Of a stretch of DNA of 64,000 nucleotides, positions 20,908 through 53,169 are shown piece by piece. This DNA is from Onthophagus taurus (Eukaryota > Arthropoda > Insecta > Coleoptera > Scarabaeidae). A program made the translations under genes and the position numbers. Positions within the stretch are counted from its first letter, which is position 1. Each line of letters starts with the position of its first letter. The notes beneath the pieces are model-generated. The model did not search any database. It saw only the letters and a program-made list of their open reading frames with translations, and was not told the DNA's origin. The DNA lies in NCBI RefSeq assembly GCF_036711975.1, contig NW_027248941.1:2728001-2792000 (forward strand), written 5' to 3'.

Positions 20908-22458
20908 TTAATAAAAATAATCATTTTTAGGCATATGCGTCGGAGAGAAACTCATAAAATGATTCATAGTAAAATCGAGGATATCCTCGGGTTTTAATAG
21001 CAATATAGCGTTGATATAATCCATGATGATTCCCTTAAATTCGGGGTGATCCCCCATATACGATTTAATCCTCATTTCAGCGCGCACCTTTTCGTCTAAA
21101 TAATTCGAAAATAATTGCATATCACCCTCCCAGTTATGCTTTAACAAGATTTGCTCATTCCCACAGGGTTTTTGGTTGGACACTTTCGCCATTGGATTCA
21201 CCTGAAGGAAATACGGAGTTCCCTCCCATTCTTGCCGTATTAATTGGCCTTGCAATGTGAGGGTTGTGTAACATTTGTGTTCGATTCCACATTCTTCGAT
21301 TATCGTACGTTCTATTTTGCAGATGTCAAGTTTTACATCGTTGATTAATTCGCTTTCGGGGCCGGTGCAGTCATAAATATTTCTGCACATGTCTCCGTTT
21401 ATGTACATGGCGGATAATTCGAACACCCCGATGTAACGGATTATGGCTAAATAACGGTGTAGGAGGAAATTGGTGCCTTCGGCTATGTATTTTGAGGCTT
21501 TTCCAAAGCTGTAGAATTTCCTATCATCTAAATTTTCCAATGTTGATTTATGTTTCACGTAGTAATAATTTTTTACCATCCCAACGTATAAATCTTTCTC
21601 GTTTACTTTTAATTTTGGTTGTTTTGAGCTTGAATCACTTGAAACACTTTTCTTAGAATTAGTATCACTCTTTTTAGAACTGTCATTCTTTTTAGAATTA
21701 GATCCACTTCTCATTAAGCTAACTTCCCCCCCATCTTTATTAAGGACACAAAATTCCCTCCGTAACTCTTCGATTGTGTGCATCTCGCGGTCAACCCAAC
21801 TCGTAATGCAACTTCCCGCGTTTGAGCCGTTATAATCAAACTGAGATTGAACGTGGATTAAAAACTTGGTTTTCCCCCGATCGTTTTGCACCCCCAAACC
21901 ATCCTCCATCCCAATACAATTGTCATTTAAATCATCACATCCATCAATATCCCCAGAAATGGGCTCATTAATCCCCACGATTTCTTTGTGCTCTTTATTA
22001 AAAATTCTTTGTAAACGAATTTCGATGTTTTCGCAGGCTTTTCTGTCCGAAGGTTGTTTCCCCAGCGCTTTTTGTATGTCTAAGCACATCCCCCCAACAG
22101 GGATCTCCGCACCTTTCTCGTCCAAACAAGAAACCATCAAGTTTTCGCGAAACGTTAAAGCCTCGTACATCTCATCGTCGATTTCAAAATCATCAATAAC
22201 CGCTTTAAAATCGAGTAATTCTCTTTGATTGTGACAAGCGGCTCTGGCTTCGTAATTTTCTTTGATGCATTCCCTCTCCTCGAATCGCCTCAAGATCTCT
22301 TCAAGAATCTCTTTGATTCGCTCCTCGGTGAAATTGGTTAAAGACACCGAAGAGCCCTCTTCGCCACCTCCATGGTCGCCTTGATATTGTAAGTATCTCA
22401 AAATGTCTTCGCTTATTGCCAAAGGGACTTTGTCGTCACCGAGAAGATTAAGATCCAT
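20908..22458 (-). CDS. CATIP-like ciliogenesis protein (tentative)
   Basis: A single-exon frame of 516 residues, unusual beside its intron-rich neighbours. The N-terminal third is acidic and coil-prone; the middle holds a low-complexity Ser/Lys stretch (about residues 250-285). The C-terminal half has a series SFGKASKYIAEGTNFLLHRY ... AMYINGDMCRNIYDCTG ... KIERTIIEE ... WEGDMQLFSNYLDEK. It ends with a short helical segment, IIMDYINAILLLKPEDILDF, that resembles an RIIa-type docking helix. From memory this order fits ciliogenesis-associated TTC17-interacting protein (CATIP), which would place it in actin and cilium biology, but similarity is weak and no motif is decisive. It diverges from the dehydrogenase across about 205 bp. 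Confidence 0.5.
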   Translation of the reverse strand: MDLNLLGDDKVPLAISEDILRYLQYQGDHGGGEEGSSVSLTNFTEERIKEILEEILRRFEERECIKENYEARAACHNQRELLDFKAVIDDFEIDDEMYEALTFRENLMVSCLDEKGAEIPVGGMCLDIQKALGKQPSDRKACENIEIRLQRIFNKEHKEIVGINEPISGDIDGCDDLNDNCIGMEDGLGVQNDRGKTKFLIHVQSQFDYNGSNAGSCITSWVDREMHTIEELRREFCVLNKDGGEVSLMRSGSNSKKNDSSKKSDTNSKKSVSSDSSSKQPKLKVNEKDLYVGMVKNYYYVKHKSTLENLDDRKFYSFGKASKYIAEGTNFLLHRYLAIIRYIGVFELSAMYINGDMCRNIYDCTGPESELINDVKLDICKIERTIIEECGIEHKCYTTLTLQGQLIRQEWEGTPYFLQVNPMAKVSNQKPCGNEQILLKHNWEGDMQLFSNYLDEKVRAEMRIKSYMGDHPEFKGIIMDYINAILLLKPEDILDFTMNHFMSFSPTHMPKNDYFY

Positions 22459-24923: not shown

Positions 24924-27900
24924 TTAAATAATTGCATCTTCGTCTAATAACCCCACTTGTTTGCCTTTATTTAAAATTTGCTCCCGAGAAGCTGGAAACC
25001 ATTTTAAAAGGTGGCTCCATTTGCTTTTATTTAAAATTAAGACTTCAGTGTCGGCTTTGGATCGATAAGAAAATCTATGTGGGATGCATTGTAACCCTTG
25101 GGCTTCCCCAAAACTAGTCCCGGCGGTTAAAGTCCCAATGTAATATTCGACTTTCCCATAAATATCTAATTGAATAATCTCCCCCGAGTTAATAAAATAC
25201 ATGCAACAATCAGCGTCGCCCTTTTCAACAATGCAATCACCGGTTGAAAAGACAAATCGGTCCAAATAAACCACCAATTGGCGCAAAAAATCGACGTGAG
25301 TTCGGTTAAACAAGACGTGATTGTTTAAGTGGCGCCCATAAAGGATTTGGAGGACGTTTTCTTTTAAACAAGGGGGTGATTCTGTAATTAGAACCGGCAA
25401 CCAACTCCCTCGCTCTCGGTTCCATAACCTCAAACAATACCTCTTTACTTTCGCATAAAGAAATTGAGACAACTCCAATTTCTACAAAACAGTCAAATTG
25501 GTTCAATAAAAATTGAAACGAAAAAGAAACTAACCTGCAAATAAGTCCCAAGGCTTTGGAACTTCACCTCATAATTAATAAAGTTGTGCTTATTAACCAA
25601 AAGGTGGCTAACGTAGTTTGAGACAAGGTTCATCACCAAAACTTGGGTCCCAATCATCATAAATACGGTCATCGTAACTTCCGGAATCTCCAAAGGCATG
25701 ATCCCTTTCAAGCTTGTACTTGTATAAATGTTCACCACATACATATAAGCCATAATCGTAGATTCTAAAGTTTGGTTGGATGAGATGAACGTTATTTCGG
25801 ATCCTACTTTGTATCGGTACCAACATCGAGTATTCGGACACGCAATAATTAACCTAAAAATTAATTCAAATTAAATTCAAAAAAATTAAATTAAATAATT
25901 CGTCACCAAAGACACAAAAAAAGATGGAGTTGAAACATAACACTATAAAATATATACGTCCATTTCAAATGATCCTTCATTAACAACCTCTCCTCACACT
26001 GATAATAATAAAGCACTAAATGCAAAAATCGGAAGGTTCGATTCAAACAAGCCAAATTGTAAACTGCGTTATTCGAGGTATAACACCTCGTGAATAACTC
26101 AAACGGTAACAAGATAAAAAAGTCGAACCAAAATCCGCTTTTTAAATACCTCCGTCTTATAGCGTAGGGGTCACTAATAACCATCCCGCTTTCGGGGTCG
26201 ACGTAAATCAAATGGAACTTAACGCTCATCTTAATGAAGTGAATAACATCCGTTAAATAAACAACATATGTGATGTATTGAGGTTGAATTTCGTTTAAAT
26301 GCACGAAAGTTAACGTTAAAATCATAATCGAAGATAACGGATAAATATGGACGTTAATTAAGTAATTAAAAAATAAATAAACGTTGTTGTTCTCGAAGAT
26401 TAAAATTTTTTTGTAAAAATCGTGCAATTTTGTACTAAATTCGTCGATCTGATGGAATTGCGAGTCGGATAATTCTTGCATATACTCCATGTTAACCATG
26501 GTCGAGCGTTGAAATCGCTCTAAAATTTTATCAAAAGCCTCAATCGTTTTGTAAAATAATTTCCCATCAATCGTTAAAACCATAGAGTGAATGTTTGCAA
26601 CTGCATCAATCGTTTGTCTTGTAACCCCCGTTTTCGATAAACAACCAAAAACTCCTCCCGTTCTTAAGCTGCACATTAACGTACCCGCCGTGTAAATATC
26701 AACTTTTCCATCTTGAACGAAAAATAATTTCGAGTTCACATCGTTGCAACGAATTATTTTGGAGTCTTTCGTAAAGAATTCTTGGCGAAGTCGGTAAGAA
26801 ACGGCTTGAAATAAACTAAAATAAAAAAAATTAAATTGTTAGGTTATGAAAAAGTAACTTTCATTTGTTTTAATTTCTAACCTAAAATGTCCCCCAGAAA
26901 AAATTTGAACCCTTTTTAAGCAATTCTGATAAATCGCGCGCGCCAAATCTTGCTCTAATTGCGGGTGGAAATTCTTGATTACTTCGTGAATGTTCAATCC
27001 ATGCGTTTTCTTCCAAATATTTTCGTAATGAAGCACAATTAATTGTTTATCTTCGTCGCTGATGAGAGCGTCTTTTAAAAATGTCATGTAGTTCTTCATA
27101 CGGTCGCGGTAAATTGTTAATTCAACATTGCCGCCAACCTAAAAATTTTTTAAAATTATTTTAGTTATTAAGCAAATTTGATTAAATTAATTTGTTTATT
27201 TAATGCAAATTTATATCAAATTGCATTAAATTTATATCAAATTAATTTTATTAAAATTTTATAACTTAATAATTAAAATTTTTCGAAAAAGGGTACGTTC
27301 TGGTATTTTAACCTCAAAATTAAAGTTAAACTTACAACTTACCCCTCGGCTTGTTAACGACACAAAAAATAACCACCTCAAAGCAGTTAATGGTACCAAC
27401 ATAACCACGGTTAAAATAGCATGTCTTTCATTTTCCAAAATAGCCCCCGTACTGCTTCCTGTTACACTAATCGTAACCGTATACATATAATAAACATACT
27501 GATACAACCCCTTCGTAAAATCGTGGCCTTTCTCAACGTTACAAACTAACCGATAACCCTCATGTTCGCACATCACCAACATCGTTAAACTACACACTAA
27601 CGATATACAAATAATAACTAATAAACCATATCGAAACATATTAATTGCGTTCCTTTTCTTTCCTTGGAGCCGATTATCCAAAAAGCTCAATCCTTTGAAT
27701 GGCCGATAAAGTTGGCAACATCTTGTAGCTGTCAAAACTAAAATTTGTATCCATAAAATATATTGTTGTCCGAATAATCGGTCTAAACCGGTGGCGTGGA
27801 CGTGAAAGCACCCCATTGAATCCATCATAAAGGCGGTTTTTAAATAATTCTTAGCCGTGTATAAAGGATGAGTCACTAAAATCCCTTTTTCGTTGTAATA

Positions 27901-30900
27901 TTGGCAATGTAACCGAATATAAAGGTCGATTAATGCGACTAAATCGAAAATTAAATAAACTGATGTCACCAAAGTTTCGTTGTAATAAACGTTTAAAACG
28001 CTGTATCTAATGTTTATCGAAAGGATATAGATTATTAAGAGAGTGCATCGGAATACTTCCCACGTTATGTACGGCCAATTCGTTGGGTTAATCGTTCGTT
28101 TTAAAACGAAAAATCTTATGAAAGACCACATCCCCAAATTGGCGAAAGCTTGTTTAAACACAAATTTAGTCAACTCAATATCGTCGCTATCGTGGATTTT
28201 GTATTCAAAAATGTTTCCTTTTCCTTTTGATTTGATCTTGGAAATCATCGGGGGTAACCTCGCCCCGGTTCGCTTCATAATCGTTCCATAAATTCGCCGA
28301 TGCTCTTCTAGGGCGTGCTTGAAAAAAGAAAAATCAGTTTGAGACGTTTGCATAGCGCTGATAACTATGTGGGTCTTAATTAATAATAATTCCACCACCG
28401 TTAAACATTCAACCTTAACGAAAGAGAATGTGTCATGGAGAGTTTCTAAAAATGGGAATGTATCTCCGATTTGTAGGATGCTTGTAGCCCCACGTTCCGA
28501 ATCTCCAGGGAGAAACGATCGTAATCGGCAAAATCCTCTCATTATGACATAAAAAATGTCTGATTTAACATCGACGTCCATTAAAGTGGCCCCCGGGGGG
28601 ATTATTTTAATTTGGGCGTGCGCGCAAATATATCTTAACGTGTCCTTTTTGGTGTTGTGAAATAAAGGAACTTGTTTTAAGCAATCAGCAATGCGGTGTC
28701 GGACGATTTCGTTGCGCAACTCAACCGGGGCGTCTTTAAAAATGCTATTTTCCCCCACAATTTGGCACCCTCTCACTGAGTGATTAAAATATAAAAAGCG
28801 AACTAAGCGCTTTGTGATCCCAGGGTCTAATCGTTGCCGGGTTAATTCATTTTTCATAGCCCACCATTGAATCGTATCCATTTGTTTGCTTTTATACTTT
28901 AAAACCGAAGTCCCAGTTTGCTCGGATATCCCGACGCAATAAACTAAGTGTCCGGTTATTGTTAATAAAAGGCATAAAGTCGCCTCCATTACGGTTGAAG
29001 ACTCCGTTGAGCTAGCTCCGTAACCCACGTAATAATTCACGATCAAAAGTAAGTAAGCCCAAAAATCCTCATCGCTCGCTAAGTCATTATTGACTTTTGC
29101 AACGAAATATATCAAAGCGGTGAACCAATAAATAGTCACCAAATAAAAAATGAACCATTTAACTCCTCGGATAACGATCGTGTTAAATTTAATGTTGTAT
29201 TGAAGAGACCTAAAATAAAATTAAATTAAAAAAATTAAATCAAAAAAAATGTTCGTACTTCAACATCGTAAAAATTTTATAGATCTTTAATAATCGATTT
29301 AATTTGCATAACCCCAAATTGATTTTGATGTCCATCCCCCAAGCGATATAATCAATCGGGAAAATCGCCACGCAATCGATAATAAAGTAGATATTCTTTA
29401 ATTGTTGTATAATTAACTCCTTATAATTCGCAATTAAACGGTTTTTGTATCGAACCGCCGTCGAAGCTTGCAAGTAAAGATCAAATAAATAAATCACGTC
29501 CATCAATAAACAAATCGAAAGCTCGTTGAATTTCATCGAATCCTCAAAACACGCCACTTTTGGAATTATAACCGCGTGAACCATAATGGCAAAAATTACG
29601 ACGTAATCCAAACATTTTCGAAACTCCGTGTCCGGTTCCATGATAAACGGGCATTTCGACGATAAACAAATCGATTCCACTCTTAATTCGAGGTCGTGGC
29701 TCAACACCAATAAATTTAGATTCGCCGTAACGCATTTTGAGAATTCATCGATGTCGTCCGATGATTGAGAGGGGAGCGATTCCGGCTTTTTTGAGTACGC
29801 CCAAATTTCATACCAACGCCTCTTTACGTTTCGAATTGAGTTATCGGTGTAATCGATGTTTCGGTGCGTTTTTTTCGTTTGTATTCCTTTTATGGCAACT
29901 AAAAGTCGTTCTTTGAATGATTCTTGGATGCTTTTTGTTACTAATGGGTAATTTAGTAATACCTAAAAAAAATTATTAATATTTTCTCGAAATATTATTA
30001 AATAAATTCAAAAAATTAATTCAAAATTTCAAACAATCTATTAGGTTATGTTTATTCAGCACTGCCAACATAAATTTGTTTTAAGTTGGTAGTAAATTAA
30101 AAAATATTTAAATAAAAAAAGTACGTACTTTATAAAGATCAGTTAAATATAAAACTTGTATTTCGCAATAAGTAACAGCCCGTAAATTTGATACACTTTG
30201 ACAAGGAACCAAACAAGCGATTTCCCCCAAAACCGTCCCCGAAGAAAACGAAATCAACGGCGAATCATCATCTTCTTTGGATAAAGCTTGAATAACACCG
30301 GAAACGACATAAATCAATTTCGCTTTTAATTCCCCGACGCGAAATAAAAACTCAGCCGGCAACAAAAATTCGCTTTTCATCACCAAACTAACCGATCGCT
30401 TAAACGACATATCCGTTTGATTAAATAGATGCGTGTGCCTTAACGCCTCCCAATAAATATCGACGGTTACCTCTTTTTGTAAAGACGGGGGCAACATTTT
30501 GAATAAACCGGGCATATCTCGCATACCATGTCGTTGTTTGTAAAAAGTCGTGTAATATTCGAAAGTTTTGTTTTTTAAATCGACATCGGCTTCCCATTCG
30601 TCCAAGAGAGACATTATTTTGGTTACGTGGAACGCGTATCCGAAATAATTGCGATCGATTCGCATAAAAATCACCACCAAACGGCCCATAAATAACACAA
30701 AACCGATTATGAACCCAAATAGCATCGCTGAAGTAAATGTTAATAGTTCGAAAACGTTTTCTAGTTTTAAAAATGCTTAAAAATAAAAAAATTAGTACAA
30801 TTTATAATACAATAATGACATTAAAGTGAATTAAATGTCAAAGTTGACACTTAATTGTCAAAATTGACATTTAAATGTCAAAAAATGATTTTACCTGAAA

Positions 30901-31591
30901 AATTGTTAATAACAACTTCTGTCATCATAAAAAAGGATGTTCCCCACCAACGTAACGATGAGTTGGAATTAAATTCGGATTCATCTAAATGTTTTGTCCA
31001 ATTCGTTTTATGCATTTGCCCAAGTTTGAATATGATGGCTGCGAAAATCTGACCTACGATGATGAGTTTCGCGAGCCGTTGCAAACAAAGTATGGTCATT
31101 TGGTTCAATCCGACTTCGTTCATCCGTTTGGTCTCGTACAGGAAGATGCGATATGTTCTCACGACACATTTCCACTTGTAAAAGTTTTTATCGAGAGAAG
31201 TTGACGTTTGATAATTTGTTAATAATAAAAAGTATTGGATTTCATACAAAGGATGTAAGGTGAGGAAATCGATTAGGATTATTCCTAAATTTCTTGGGGG
31301 GTAACTCCTTTTCCTTCGCGTTTTTACCATGTTTCTATGCATTATGGCTAAGGCGTTATCAACGAGATACATAATCTCGCAAAAATAATAAATTAAATTA
31401 ATCGTGAAGTTGTCATGTACCCCAAAATACAAATCGTAAATTGATAGGAGTGAATTCACGATTATTGATATCATCAAACACAATTCCCATCCGCCTTGGA
31501 ATGGCAAAAAGGCTATGTGTCTCCAATCGGAAGATTCTTGATTATAAGCCGCATCTTCTTCATGTATAGAAACAACAGTTATTCTTTTCAT
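24924..31591 (-). CDS. Four-repeat CNGK-type cyclic-nucleotide-binding-domain channel
   Basis: Eight exons (31591-30895, 30760-30129, 29962-29259, 29209-27343, 27138-26882, 26815-25907, 25853-25535, 25481-24924) join in frame to 1980 residues. The protein repeats a six-TM plus C-linker/CNBD module four times, like CNGK/TetraKCNG channels of sea urchin and fish sperm. Repeat 1 spans about 1-450, repeat 2 about 530-985, repeat 3 about 1030-1500 and repeat 4 about 1500-1980. Pore regions differ: repeat 1 FFMMTEVVINNFS, repeat 2 NYYVGYGASS (GYG at 29025-29017), repeat 3 YTVTISVTGSSTG, repeat 4 VNIYTSTSLKG. CNBD phosphate-cassette remnants are LGEIACL in repeat 1 and FGEAQGL followed by RSKA in repeat 4; repeats 2 and 3 are degenerate. 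S4-like helices have basic residues (for example NRLLKIYKIF). Plasma membrane location is expected; ion selectivity and ligand are unknown. Confidence 0.88.
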
Positions 31592-49111: not shown

Positions 49112-51086
49112 ATGAAGAAAATCGACGTTTTAATTCAAGTTTTGGTCATTATCTTAGTGGGGGGTGAAGTTATTTGTGAAAATGAATTGGTTTCGGTCGT
49201 GATTGTAAGTATTTTTATGTATTCCCATAAAAAGGCTTCATTCTTTTTATGAATTAAATCTTATTTGTTTAATTAACGAAATAAATAATTATTTTTAAAA
49301 GATTTTTAGACATGGTGCAAGAACGATTATACAACCATATCCAACCGATCCATATAAAAATGAATCTTTATGGCCCGTAGGTTTCGGGCAATTAACTAAC
49401 GTGAGTTTGTTTTTATAAAAGAATTTATTTCTATAGAAAAACTTTTTACGCAATCACTTTTATGTTTCCGCAAAAAGTACTACGTTATCAGTTGGAAAAG
49501 TGAGCTTCGTTGCAAACAATCTTTATCTACGTAGTTAATTTTAGATAAAGTTATCAATAATATTTACAATCCGGGTGTCATTTTTGCTAATTAACCATGA
49601 AATTGAGTTTTTAATTACATTTTAATTAGTTGTTTGTTTTCTTTTTATCACTTTTATACACATATTTAAGCACTAATTAGTGTTTATTATTAAATGTTTA
49701 TCATTGAGCTCCTTCCAGTGTATTTTAATCGTAAAATCAACAAGAGATTTCATCAATGTTAATCTTTGGATTATTTCTTCAAACAATAAAAAAACGTTGC
49801 CTTGTACTTTGAAATAATCGAAATTGCAAACTCAACAATAACAATTTAAACAATAACTTTAAATAAATTATTCGCATTCTATAATTAGTACTTTAGATGG
49901 CGCTATTTTAGTCGATAAAGTAGTTTACTTAGTGATTATCCGCCATTTTGTGTTTGTTTTGATGTAAAGTGAGGTTAATTTTATTGATTTTTTTTAGGAA
50001 GGAAAAATGCAACATTTCAAACTCGGACAATATTTTCGCGAACGTTACGGCGATTTCCTCCCAAAGAAATACACCGAAAAGCAAGTTTACGTCCGATCCA
50101 CCGATGTTGATCGTACTTTAATGTCAGCGGCCGCTAATTTGGCTGGTTTGTTCCCTCCGGAAGGGGCTCAAGTTTGGGACAAAGATATCCCGTGGCAACC
50201 AATTCCGATTCATACCGAACCTGAACTTGAAGACGCATTTTTAGCCTCGAAAAAACCTTGCGCTAAATACGACATTTTGTATAATAATATGATTAACTCT
50301 GAAGAAATGAAAAAATTAAATTTTGAGAATAAGGATTTATATGAGTATTTAAATAAACATTCGGGTGAAAATATTAAGGATTTTGATGCGATGGGATATT
50401 TATACAATAATTTATTTATTGAGAATTATATGAATTTTACATTACCCGAATGGACAAAAGAAGTTTTTCCTGATAAAATGAAACCATTATCCGATTTTAG
50501 TTTTGCTCTACCATGCTATAAAAGGGAATTAGCCCGATTTAAAACAGGACCATTTTTTTATGATTTATTAAAATATTTTAGCAAGGTTAAGCATAGAGAA
50601 AATGTTACCGATGATTACATCAAATTAAAAATATTTTCCGGGCACGATACAACCTTAGCTAATTTATTAGAATCATTAGGAATATTTGAATATCATTCGC
50701 CACCATTTAGAAGCACCCTCATTTTCGAATTGTACCAAAATAAATCTTCCGATTCAGATTTAAATCACTTTGTTAAAATTTTTTACAAAAATACAACTTC
50801 CGAACCTAACAAAATGGTTCTAAAAGGATGTGATTTCGATTGTGATTTTGAAATTTTCCAAAAATTATTGGAGCCTTTATCGATGTCTTTGTACGAATGG
50901 GACCGGGAATGCAAAGTTAGTTTATTTTCAACAGTTACCGAAAATAGAGAAAATTTAGTGATCGCTACCAGTTTATTAATAATCGTGATTTGTTTTATTG
51001 CTGTTTTAATCAAATTTATTTATATTAAAAATAAGAAGGATCGGACGGTTTATTTGAGGTTACCGGATGATGAAGAACAAGTTTAA
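49112..51086 (+). CDS. Membrane-anchored histidine acid phosphatase 1
   Basis: Branch-2 histidine acid phosphatase (prostatic/lysosomal type) hydrolysing phosphomonoesters outside the cell or in lysosomes. Exons 49112-49204, 49302-49400 and 49998-51086 encode 426 residues. A hydrophobic signal peptide fills the first 20 or so residues. The catalytic nucleophile motif RHGAR sits across the exon 2 start. YVRSTDVDRTLMSA follows, and the general-acid HD in FSGHDTTLANLLESLG. Six or more cysteines lie in the C-terminal half. A single TM helix near the C-terminus (LVIATSLLIIVICFIAVLI) is followed by a short basic tail, as in lysosomal ACP2. The neighbouring copy shares intron positions and most of the sequence, so this is a recent tandem duplicate. 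An ATG one codon earlier (49109) is possible. Confidence 0.94.
49895..49923 (+). promoter_or_regulatory. Bipartite motif AGATGGCGCTA ... CGATAAAGTAG
   Basis: In intron 2 of acid phosphatase 1. AGATGGCGCTA at 49895 and CGATAAAGTAG at 49913 are 18 bases apart start to start, the same spacing as upstream of malate dehydrogenase (174 and 192). Confidence 0.4.
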
Positions 51087-51717: not shown

Positions 51718-53169
51718 ATGACGAAAATCGATTTTTTTTTACTTTTAATCATATCCTTTGTTAGTGGGCAAGTTGTTAATAAAAATGAATTGGTTTCAGT
51801 CGTGGTTGTAAGTATTAATTAATTCATATTAATATTTAAAAAAAATGAATTAATTATTTAAAAGATTTTTAGACATGGTGCAAGAACAATTTTAAAACCA
51901 TATCCGACAGATCCGTATAAAAATGAATCGTTATGGCCTGTAGGATTTGGGCAATTAACTAATGTGAGTTTTTTATAATAAATAATAAAACAGCAACAAT
52001 AACAACTTAAATAAATTTCTAAATAGATGGCGCTATCTTAGTCGATAAAGTAGTTTACTTATCCGCCATTTTATTTTTATGTTTTGATAAAGTGAGGTTA
52101 ATTTTTTTTTTAGGAAGGTAAAATGCAACATTACAAACTCGGCCAATATTTTCGTAAACGTTACAGTGATTTTCTCCCAAAAAAATACTCCGAGAAACAA
52201 ATTTACGTGCGATCCACCGATGTTGATCGTGCTTTAATGTCGGCGGCGTCTCATTTAGCGGGTCTGTTCCCTCCGGAAGGAGATCAAGTTTGGGATAAAG
52301 ATATCCCGTGGCAACCAATTCCGATTCATACCGAGCCGAAACTTGAAGATGCTCTTTTAGCTTCGAAAAAGCCTTGTGTTAAATATGATGTTTTATTTAA
52401 TGATTTGATGAACTCGGAGGAGATGCAAAAATTGAACAGGGATAATAAGGAGTTGTACGATTATTTAAGTAGATATACGGGTGAAAATATTGAGAATTTG
52501 CACCAAATGCATTCTTTGTATACTAATTTATTTATTGAGGATTTAATGAATTTTACGTTACCTGAATGGACGAAACAAGTTTTTCCCAACAAAATGAAAC
52601 CGCTTTATGATTTTACTTTTGCACTCCCTTGTTATAAGAGGGAATTAGCCCGATTTAAAACAGGACCTTTTTTTTACGATTTATTAAATCATTTTAGTGA
52701 GGTTATAAATGGGAGGAACAAAATCAAGTTGAAAATTTTTTCAGCGCATGATACAACGCTAGCCAATTTATTAGAATCATTAGGAATCTTTGAGTATCAT
52801 TCACCACCATTTGGGAGCTCCCTAATTTTTGAATTGTACCAAAACATATCTCCCGATTTAAATTTAAACCATCATGTAAAAATTTATTATAAAAACACAA
52901 CTTCCGAACCTAACAAAATGGTGTTAAAAGGATGTGATTTTGAGTGCGATTTAGAAATTTTCCAAAAAATATTGCAACCTTTATCTGTGTCTTTGCAGCA
53001 ATGGCAACGGGAGTGTGAAATAAAATTTTTGACAGTTACTGAAAGTGGTAAAAAAGTTGTAGTTATCGCGAGTTTATTAATTTTTGTGATTATTTTAGTT
53101 GCGGTTTTAACTAAATTAATTTGTGGTAGGTGTAGAAGAAATCGGGCGGATTATTTAAGGTTTATTTAA
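51718..53169 (+). CDS. Membrane-anchored histidine acid phosphatase 2
   Basis: Tandem paralogue of the preceding gene with the same three-exon layout (51718-51807, 51865-51963, 52114-53169), 414 residues. Signal peptide, RHGAR nucleophile motif, YVRSTDVDRALMSAASHLAG, and the acid motif SAHDTTLANLLESLG are all present. A C-terminal TM helix is followed by CGRCRRN and a short tail. Long stretches are nearly identical to copy 1 (for example LPCYKRELARFKTGPFFYDL), while the stem near residue 190 is shorter. Intron 2 also keeps the AGATGGCGCTA/CGATAAAGTAG pair (52025 and 52043), so introns as well as exons were duplicated. Confidence 0.94.
52025..52053 (+). promoter_or_regulatory. Second phosphatase copy of the bipartite motif
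   Basis: AGATGGCGCTA at 52025 and CGATAAAGTAG at 52043, again 18 bases apart. As a duplicate of 49895-49923 it is not independent evidence; the independent occurrence is at 174-202. Confidence 0.4.

Follow-up and report, generated by a model that had tools for sequence, protein, structure and literature searches.

What does a channel gene do when its single reading frame holds four complete repeats of a six-transmembrane channel with a cyclic nucleotide-binding domain (CNBD), and only one of these repeats carries the GYG motif of a potassium filter? This question is raised by a 64,000-nucleotide stretch of the genome of the scarab beetle Onthophagus taurus (assembly GCF_036711975.1, contig NW_027248941.1, positions 2,728,001 to 2,792,000), which we call the window and in whose coordinates all positions are given unless a contig or locus is named. 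The four-repeat gene on its minus strand (31591-24924) is labelled gene A, its paralogues in the same genome are labelled B to S, and repeats 1 to 4 are abbreviated as R1 to R4. We consider it fairly probable that gene A encodes a 24-transmembrane, pseudotetrameric CNBD channel of a lineage-specific CNGK-like family in which the K+ filter has been dismantled, and that this channel is not K+-selective, because a fourfold TVGYG cage would no longer be possible.

Exon structure and domain layout of gene A

In the splice model, the eight exons of gene A join to 5958 nt encoding 1985 amino acids without a single internal stop, and four repeats of S1-S6, C-linker and CNBD follow each other in one frame; the seven introns are 49-204 bases long, are all of the GT-AG type and have matching phases. 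Exon 1 (30895-31591, minus strand like all others) contains the start codon, R1 S1-S5 and the first half of the R1 pore loop, exon 2 (30129-30775) the rest of this loop with S6, C-linker and CNBD, and exon 3 (29259-29962) the end of the R1 CNBD, the R1-R2 linker and R2 S1-S4. Exon 4 (27343-29209), defined by splice and structure models, covers S5-pore-S6, C-linker and CNBD of R2 as well as S1-S6 of R3, and is followed by exon 5 (26882-27138) with the R3 C-linker, exon 6 (25907-26815) with the R3 CNBD and R4 S1-S5, exon 7 (25535-25853) with the R4 pore loop and S6, and exon 8 (24924-25481) with the R4 C-linker, CNBD and stop codon. The junctions R1-R2, R2-R3 and R3-R4 thus lie inside exons 3, 4 and 6, respectively, and separate transcripts for each repeat are therefore unlikely; since six paralogues also have uninterrupted four-repeat frames, it is near certain from the sequence that the four repeats form one polypeptide. 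At the GC content of the window (31.6%), approximately 153 stops are expected in 1985 codons, and the log10 probability of an open frame is about -69 if bases are assumed to be independent. A first-pass annotation of this DNA had described eight exons, no frame break, four six-transmembrane/CNBD modules and conservation of an open frame of about 2000 codons, all of which we recovered, although its length of 1980 codons has to be corrected to 1985.

The Pfam profile PF00027 matched in each quarter of the protein (E 9.6e-7, 0.013, 2.2e-4 and 5.9e-9 for R1 to R4), with the matches of R2 and R3 below the curated cut-off, whereas Ion_trans was not matched anywhere in the protein even at E<=1, and the membrane part is therefore very divergent. 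A phmmer search against the PDB gave 116 distinct sequences at E<=0.01, and the matches listed (best 60 of 116) included HCN4, CNGA2, EAG1, SthK and plant K channels, with no CNGK among them. An AlphaFold model of exon 4 (R2-R3), built on 12 paralogous segments (mean predicted local distance difference test score (pLDDT) 65.4, predicted template modelling score (pTM) 0.39), places S5 (model residues 2-40), a pore helix (48-61), the GYG directly after it, S6, the C-linker and a beta-roll in this order, followed by helices compatible with S1-S6 and the pore helix of R3; its first PDB matches were HCN4, olfactory CNGA2/A4/B1, SthK and a prokaryotic CNG channel (E 2e-10 to 6e-10). A further model, built for R4 of gene F (mean pLDDT 66.1, pTM 0.38), had helices and strands in matching order. 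Sequence matches and models thus both give the layout of the CNBD channel superfamily, in which S5, a pore helix and S6 precede the C-linker and the beta-roll of the CNBD. HCN, CNG and KCNH channels share this C-linker/CNBD and the six-transmembrane fold, and are among the best PDB matches by both sequence and model, but they have a single repeat per polypeptide and assemble from four identical or related subunits, whereas gene A departs from the rule of one such unit per gene. Four such repeats in one polypeptide are likewise the layout of the CNGK (tetraKCNG) sperm channels of sea urchin (ApCNGK) and zebrafish (DrCNGK), as had been proposed for this gene from its architecture.

A family of four-repeat genes with few potassium-type pore loops

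The first-pass annotation treated gene A as a single insect gene with one GYG; the latter is correct, but a whole family was missed, and the loss of GYG is family-wide. The genome from which the window comes (290.8 Mb, 33 contigs) gave 96 matches to the PF00027 profile and 36 to the gene A protein, eight of the latter being the exons of gene A itself. At least 17 genes (A to Q) span four repeats according to the profile search or to the exons read, although the stretches read stop short of the R4 CNBD in Q, the membrane part of R3 in E and the pore of R2 in P. Two further genes were read partially (R for R3-R4, S for R1-R2) and presumably have the remaining repeats, which brings the total to 19 genes on nine contigs. 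Six of these (D, G, H, J, K and N) have all four repeats in a single uninterrupted frame of 1903-2044 codons, and in gene M one frame of 1686 codons covers most of the protein. At the position of intron 4 of gene A, close to the first residues of its exon 5 (GGN..), a new frame starts in C, E and F, while B reads straight through; gene Q is split into many pieces, and because of this it probably has many introns. Putative intron loss via retroposition would be a natural explanation for such differences among the paralogues.

Phylogenetic analysis used a maximum likelihood tree built from 71 segments spanning C-linker and CNBD, together with six sequences that were references or HCN-like, the references being drawn from outside EAG/KCNH. 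An earlier tree had 66 repeats and left out Q_R2 and Q_R4 as too short; Q_R2 was included in the second from hand-joined pieces, with Q_R4 still left out. The repeats fall into four clades by position, R1 (18 sequences), R2 (18), R3 (18) and R4 (17), with ultrafast bootstrap (UFBoot) values of 95, 97, 100 and 100, and within each of these the same gene subclades I (A, B, C, E, F), II (D, G, I, J, L, O) and III (H, K, M, N, P, and R where read) were recovered with UFBoot 89-100. For R1 and R2, where alone both Q and S are in the tree, these two genes form an additional clade, while the placement of Q among the subclades varies from repeat to repeat. Because the repeats sort by position with the same subclades in each, the tree indicates that the unit of duplication is the whole four-repeat gene, and that this gene is older than the radiation.

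The single GYG of gene A is that of the R2 filter VGYGASS (29017-29025, residues 745-747, by the splice model), which in a low-confidence stretch of the structure model comes after a pore helix and before S6; its position had been given exactly in the first-pass annotation, as had the absence of GYG from the other repeats. The R2 pore loop as a whole covers 28978-29061 (residues 733-760, loop alignment and model), and by loop alignment those of R3 (27433-27498, residues 1254-1275, SVTGSSTGAI) and R4 (25691-25759, residues 1726-1748, TSTSLKGIMP) are without GxG; R1 reads EVVINNFSAF. Across the 19 genes we read 70 loops, 60 of them in the joined alignment and ten outside it (K R2, Q R1, Q R2, Q R4, C R4, E R4, R R3, R R4, S R1 and S R2); if R and S are taken to have four repeats each, six were not read (P R2, E R3, R R1, R R2, S R3 and S R4). 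A GxG at the filter position was present in only 8/70 loops, with at most one per gene among the loops read, in an alignment that is loose in the most divergent genes. In R1 these are GYG in M and Q and GFG in J, L and O, in R2 the GYG of A and a GVG in E (uncertain, as an intron may begin inside it), and in R3 a GMG in P, the position of which is a matter of judgement. GxG motifs off the filter position were not counted (GTG in D R2, GWG in D R3, and GSG in S R1, which comes two residues late). In gene Q, an intron splits the first glycine codon of the R1 VGYG filter (L035:757-845). The R4 loops of F (TSTGFNDMSP), B (TSTGIRDQTP), E (SSTGLRLVCP), C (TKNGLKDSIP), Q (SSTGFRNRVP) and A retain the TVGYGDxxP frame but have lost its second glycine and so resemble decayed TVGYGD filters, which suggests that the ancestor was of the K+ type and that its filters decayed one repeat at a time.

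The CNBDs were delimited with Pfam and alignment, and their phosphate Arg and Glu positions are presumed to be those of HCN2 and CNGA1. In gene A, the R1 CNBD (30135-30365) and R4 CNBD (25017-25274) keep Gly-Glu but have Ser and His, respectively, at the phosphate Arg position, the R2 CNBD (28363-28620) is without a recognisable phosphate-binding cassette, and the R3 CNBD (26554-26790) has Cys for Glu and Gln at the phosphate Arg position, with an Arg one residue earlier. The cassette had been reported as lacking in R2 and R3, which holds for these two, but the canonical Arg is absent from all four. Within the family, no cassette is evident in R2 CNBDs, and the phosphate-binding Arg is kept in 2/50 aligned R1, R3 and R4 CNBDs (0/17, 2/17 and 0/16, respectively), the two being R3 of D and G; the Gln and Cys in R3 of gene A replace both ligand residues of the CNBD3 of CNGK. 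The Arg preceding the phosphate position in R3 is present in 17/17 genes, and was rejected as the phosphate Arg since it comes one residue too early. The phosphate Arg position of R4 (25077-25079) is occupied by His in 13/16 genes, as in xHxYSY or GHEYTY, and this conserved His could matter in pH sensing.

S4 of R2 has 3-4 Lys/Arg at every third residue in all 16 genes read, equal to the three controls (also 3-4), whereas such residues number 1 to 4 in R1 (16 genes) and R3 (15 genes) and 2 to 3 in R4 (17 genes); in gene A the counts for R1 to R4 are 2, 4, 2 and 2.

Possible functions of the family and competing explanations

The reading that we prefer starts from a four-repeat K+-type (CNGK-like) ancestor, the whole gene of which would have been duplicated to at least 17 genes while the K+ filter was dismantled one repeat at a time, so that at most one GxG per gene was left among the loops read, in gene A the GYG of R2. 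In the mechanism that seems most likely, the S4 helices and the four CNBDs would still form a gating ring round a central pore that could no longer build the fourfold TVGYG cage. The outcome would be a cation pore that is asymmetric and of poor selectivity, or else a sensor or regulator that does not conduct and is driven by voltage and CNBD ligand; we give the two about equal weight. The first-pass annotation had likewise listed an asymmetric pore, altered selectivity and a non-conducting protein; the loss of the usual symmetry of the K+ filter is clear from the one GYG in four repeats, but gating and the loss of K+ selectivity are both predictions from sequence.

Several observations weigh against this reading. 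The family is CNGK-like by architecture and relic motifs only, from which descent from CNGK is inferred, and the letters of a filter do not settle conduction, as HCN channels have GYG yet are weakly selective and CNG channels conduct without it. The confidence of the exon 4 model is moderate, with pLDDT <50 in the R2 filter (model residues 64-71) and the R3 pore (552-592), and its superpositions are loose (template modelling score by query 0.30-0.36 for the first matches, 0.25-0.36 for the top 50). In the best tree the four repeats do not form one clade: R1 is separated from the other repeats by SthK, HCN4 and CNGA3, and SKOR groups with R2+R4. Finally, fast tree searches on S1-S4 data favour pairing of the repeats as 1-4/2-3 (p of the approximately unbiased test (p-AU) 0.905), with 1-3/2-4 second best (0.136), whereas with CNBD data 1-3/2-4 is best, without significance (p-AU 0.703 vs 0.394 and 0.277). 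CNGK repeats pair 1-3 and 2-4 according to the text available from PMC7576140, and as CNBD and S1-S4 favour different pairings we did not use the pairing topology as proof of CNGK ancestry.

The shape of the tree also bears on a rival origin, in which single-repeat CNBD channels were concatenated independently in insects, with no relation to CNGK. The lack of one clade for the four repeats and the position of SKOR among them would speak for it, as would the CNGK literature covered, which in the parts available names no insect or arthropod CNGK. However, forcing all repeats into one clade apart from the six reference sequences costs 7.5 log units, and such monophyly is not rejected (p-AU 0.063); the relics of K+-type loops, as well as the grouping of R2 with R4 in the tree, fit CNGK, with its pairing of 1-3 and 2-4 (PMC7576140), and we regard such an origin as improbable. 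Nor did the repeats fall into different channel families, an outcome that the first-pass annotation had named as refuting: they group by position, and their joint monophyly is not rejected, though the best tree does not show it. Least credible of all is a decaying pseudogene or an artefact of the gene model: divergence is high and some paralogues lie in several pieces for which splicing was not worked out, but against this are the 1985 open codons, seven further frames of 1686-2044 codons in paralogues, and a codon-position identity of position 2 > 1 > 3 over the whole protein in all eight paralogue pairs tried, which were chosen rather than exhaustive. This last pattern is as purifying selection would give, although the comparison had no neutral control and membrane composition by itself favours position 2, a further point to be set against our preferred reading. 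Splice model, open-frame statistics and codon positions together led us to reject this explanation.

The choice between a conducting and a non-conducting protein is closer. A cation channel that conducts without K+ selectivity, gated by the CNBD ring and with an asymmetric filter to whose constriction every repeat contributes side chains of its own, is a tentative possibility, consistent with the survival of S5, pore helix and S6 in the R2-R3 model, with the charged R2 S4 in 16/16 genes, and with codon position 2 exceeding position 3 even in the pore (63% vs 39% in the pair J-O). On the other hand, pore identity in that pair is 31% vs 62% in the CNBD, and the filter residues of R3 and R4 differ even between these closest paralogues. 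We hold it slightly less likely, and on balance unlikely, that the protein is a pseudo-channel with a dead pore, serving as voltage or ligand sensor, scaffold or conductor through the voltage sensor domain, as in HCNL1. This would agree with the rarity of GxG at the filter (8/70 loops) and with the finding that S5-P-S6 has the lowest mean identity of four segments in 12/12 repeat-by-subclade comparisons, with the CNBD highest in 8/12. In the other four, however, S1-S4 is the most conserved (R2 in three subclades, R3 in III), R1 GFG has been retained in the related J, L and O, which suggests constraint on some filters, and S4 charge runs in R1 and R3 of many genes are short. Nor can low pore identity be taken as proof of a dead pore, as in HCN4, CNGA3 and SKOR the pore likewise has lower identity than the CNBD (23-25% vs 28-39%), which again tells against the interpretation that we favour.

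Nav, Cav and NALCN channels belong to another branch of the superfamily, lack a CNBD, and have different side chains from each repeat at the constriction. An asymmetric pore made of four repeats in one chain is what they would share with the family (PMC6259924, available text). HCNL1 of zebrafish sperm, a relative of CNBD channels that passes protons via its voltage sensor according to the text covered of PMC11700363, has a single repeat, and its mechanism is a candidate one for the gene A family. As far as the text of PMC4749565 extends, ApCNGK is gated by one cGMP at CNBD3 and DrCNGK by pH, so that uneven CNBD function is an aspect already known in CNGK, but the CNGK pore has GYG or GFG, whereas here there is no more than one GxG per gene among the loops read, the phosphate Arg is lost in 48/50 CNBDs of R1, R3 and R4, and a single genome has at least 17 paralogues. 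Because nearly all pore loops are without the K+-selecting motif of sperm CNGK, the family probably has a different job; a role in sperm is suggested by analogy with CNGK only. It is conceivable, if doubtful, that an insect lineage multiplied an ancient K+-selective pseudotetrameric sperm channel to nearly 20 genes, partly as intronless copies, and rebuilt or abandoned the pore to give a clade of four-repeat CNBD proteins, asymmetric or with a dead pore, that would serve as voltage- or ligand-sensing regulators instead of K+ channels.

If true, CNG (TIGE) would not be the only clade of animal CNBD channels to have lost the TVGY/FG filter throughout, and this family would be a second. CNGK has been described as a symmetric four-repeat K+ channel whose four domains are not obviously specialised (PMC6259924), and CNBD channels as deviating from TVGY/FG only rarely and in individual cases, the metazoan CNG clade being the sole exception (PMC7576140); the family would contradict both statements. 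Its series of paralogues with no or one K+-type loop offers a natural test of what a single GYG does in a four-repeat pore. Open-licence PMC papers searched under the terms used yielded no insect CNGK or comparable expansion, and nothing relevant on Coleoptera retrogenes or beetle channel expansions.

Other CNBD genes and neighbours of gene A

Two single-repeat HCN-like proteins were also found in the genome, L007 (C10:6335893 region), which matches HCN4 at E 5e-50, and L037 (C7:36087901-36090100), both with pore loops without GYG. Together with several further frames of about 500-600 codons with CNBD matches, they may be HCN-like genes that expanded in parallel and have no K+ filter.

The telomere patterns were uninformative, as five units of TCAGG gave 0 hits and five units of TTAGG gave 3 overlapping hits at a single place. 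Within the window, a frame of 516 aa (20908-22458, minus strand), at a distance of about 2.5 kb from gene A, has the ciliogenesis-associated domain CATIP_N, and two adjoining histidine phosphatase (branch 2) frames on the plus strand (49998-51083 and 52114-53166) probably result from local duplication. The neighbours of gene A also include a proteasome gene, which was no guide to the kind of organism, and an NDUFA12 exon that does point to an insect, as it matches 8b9z, 8ba0 and 8esw, taken by us to be Drosophila complex I, at about 103 bits vs 58 for the next entries.

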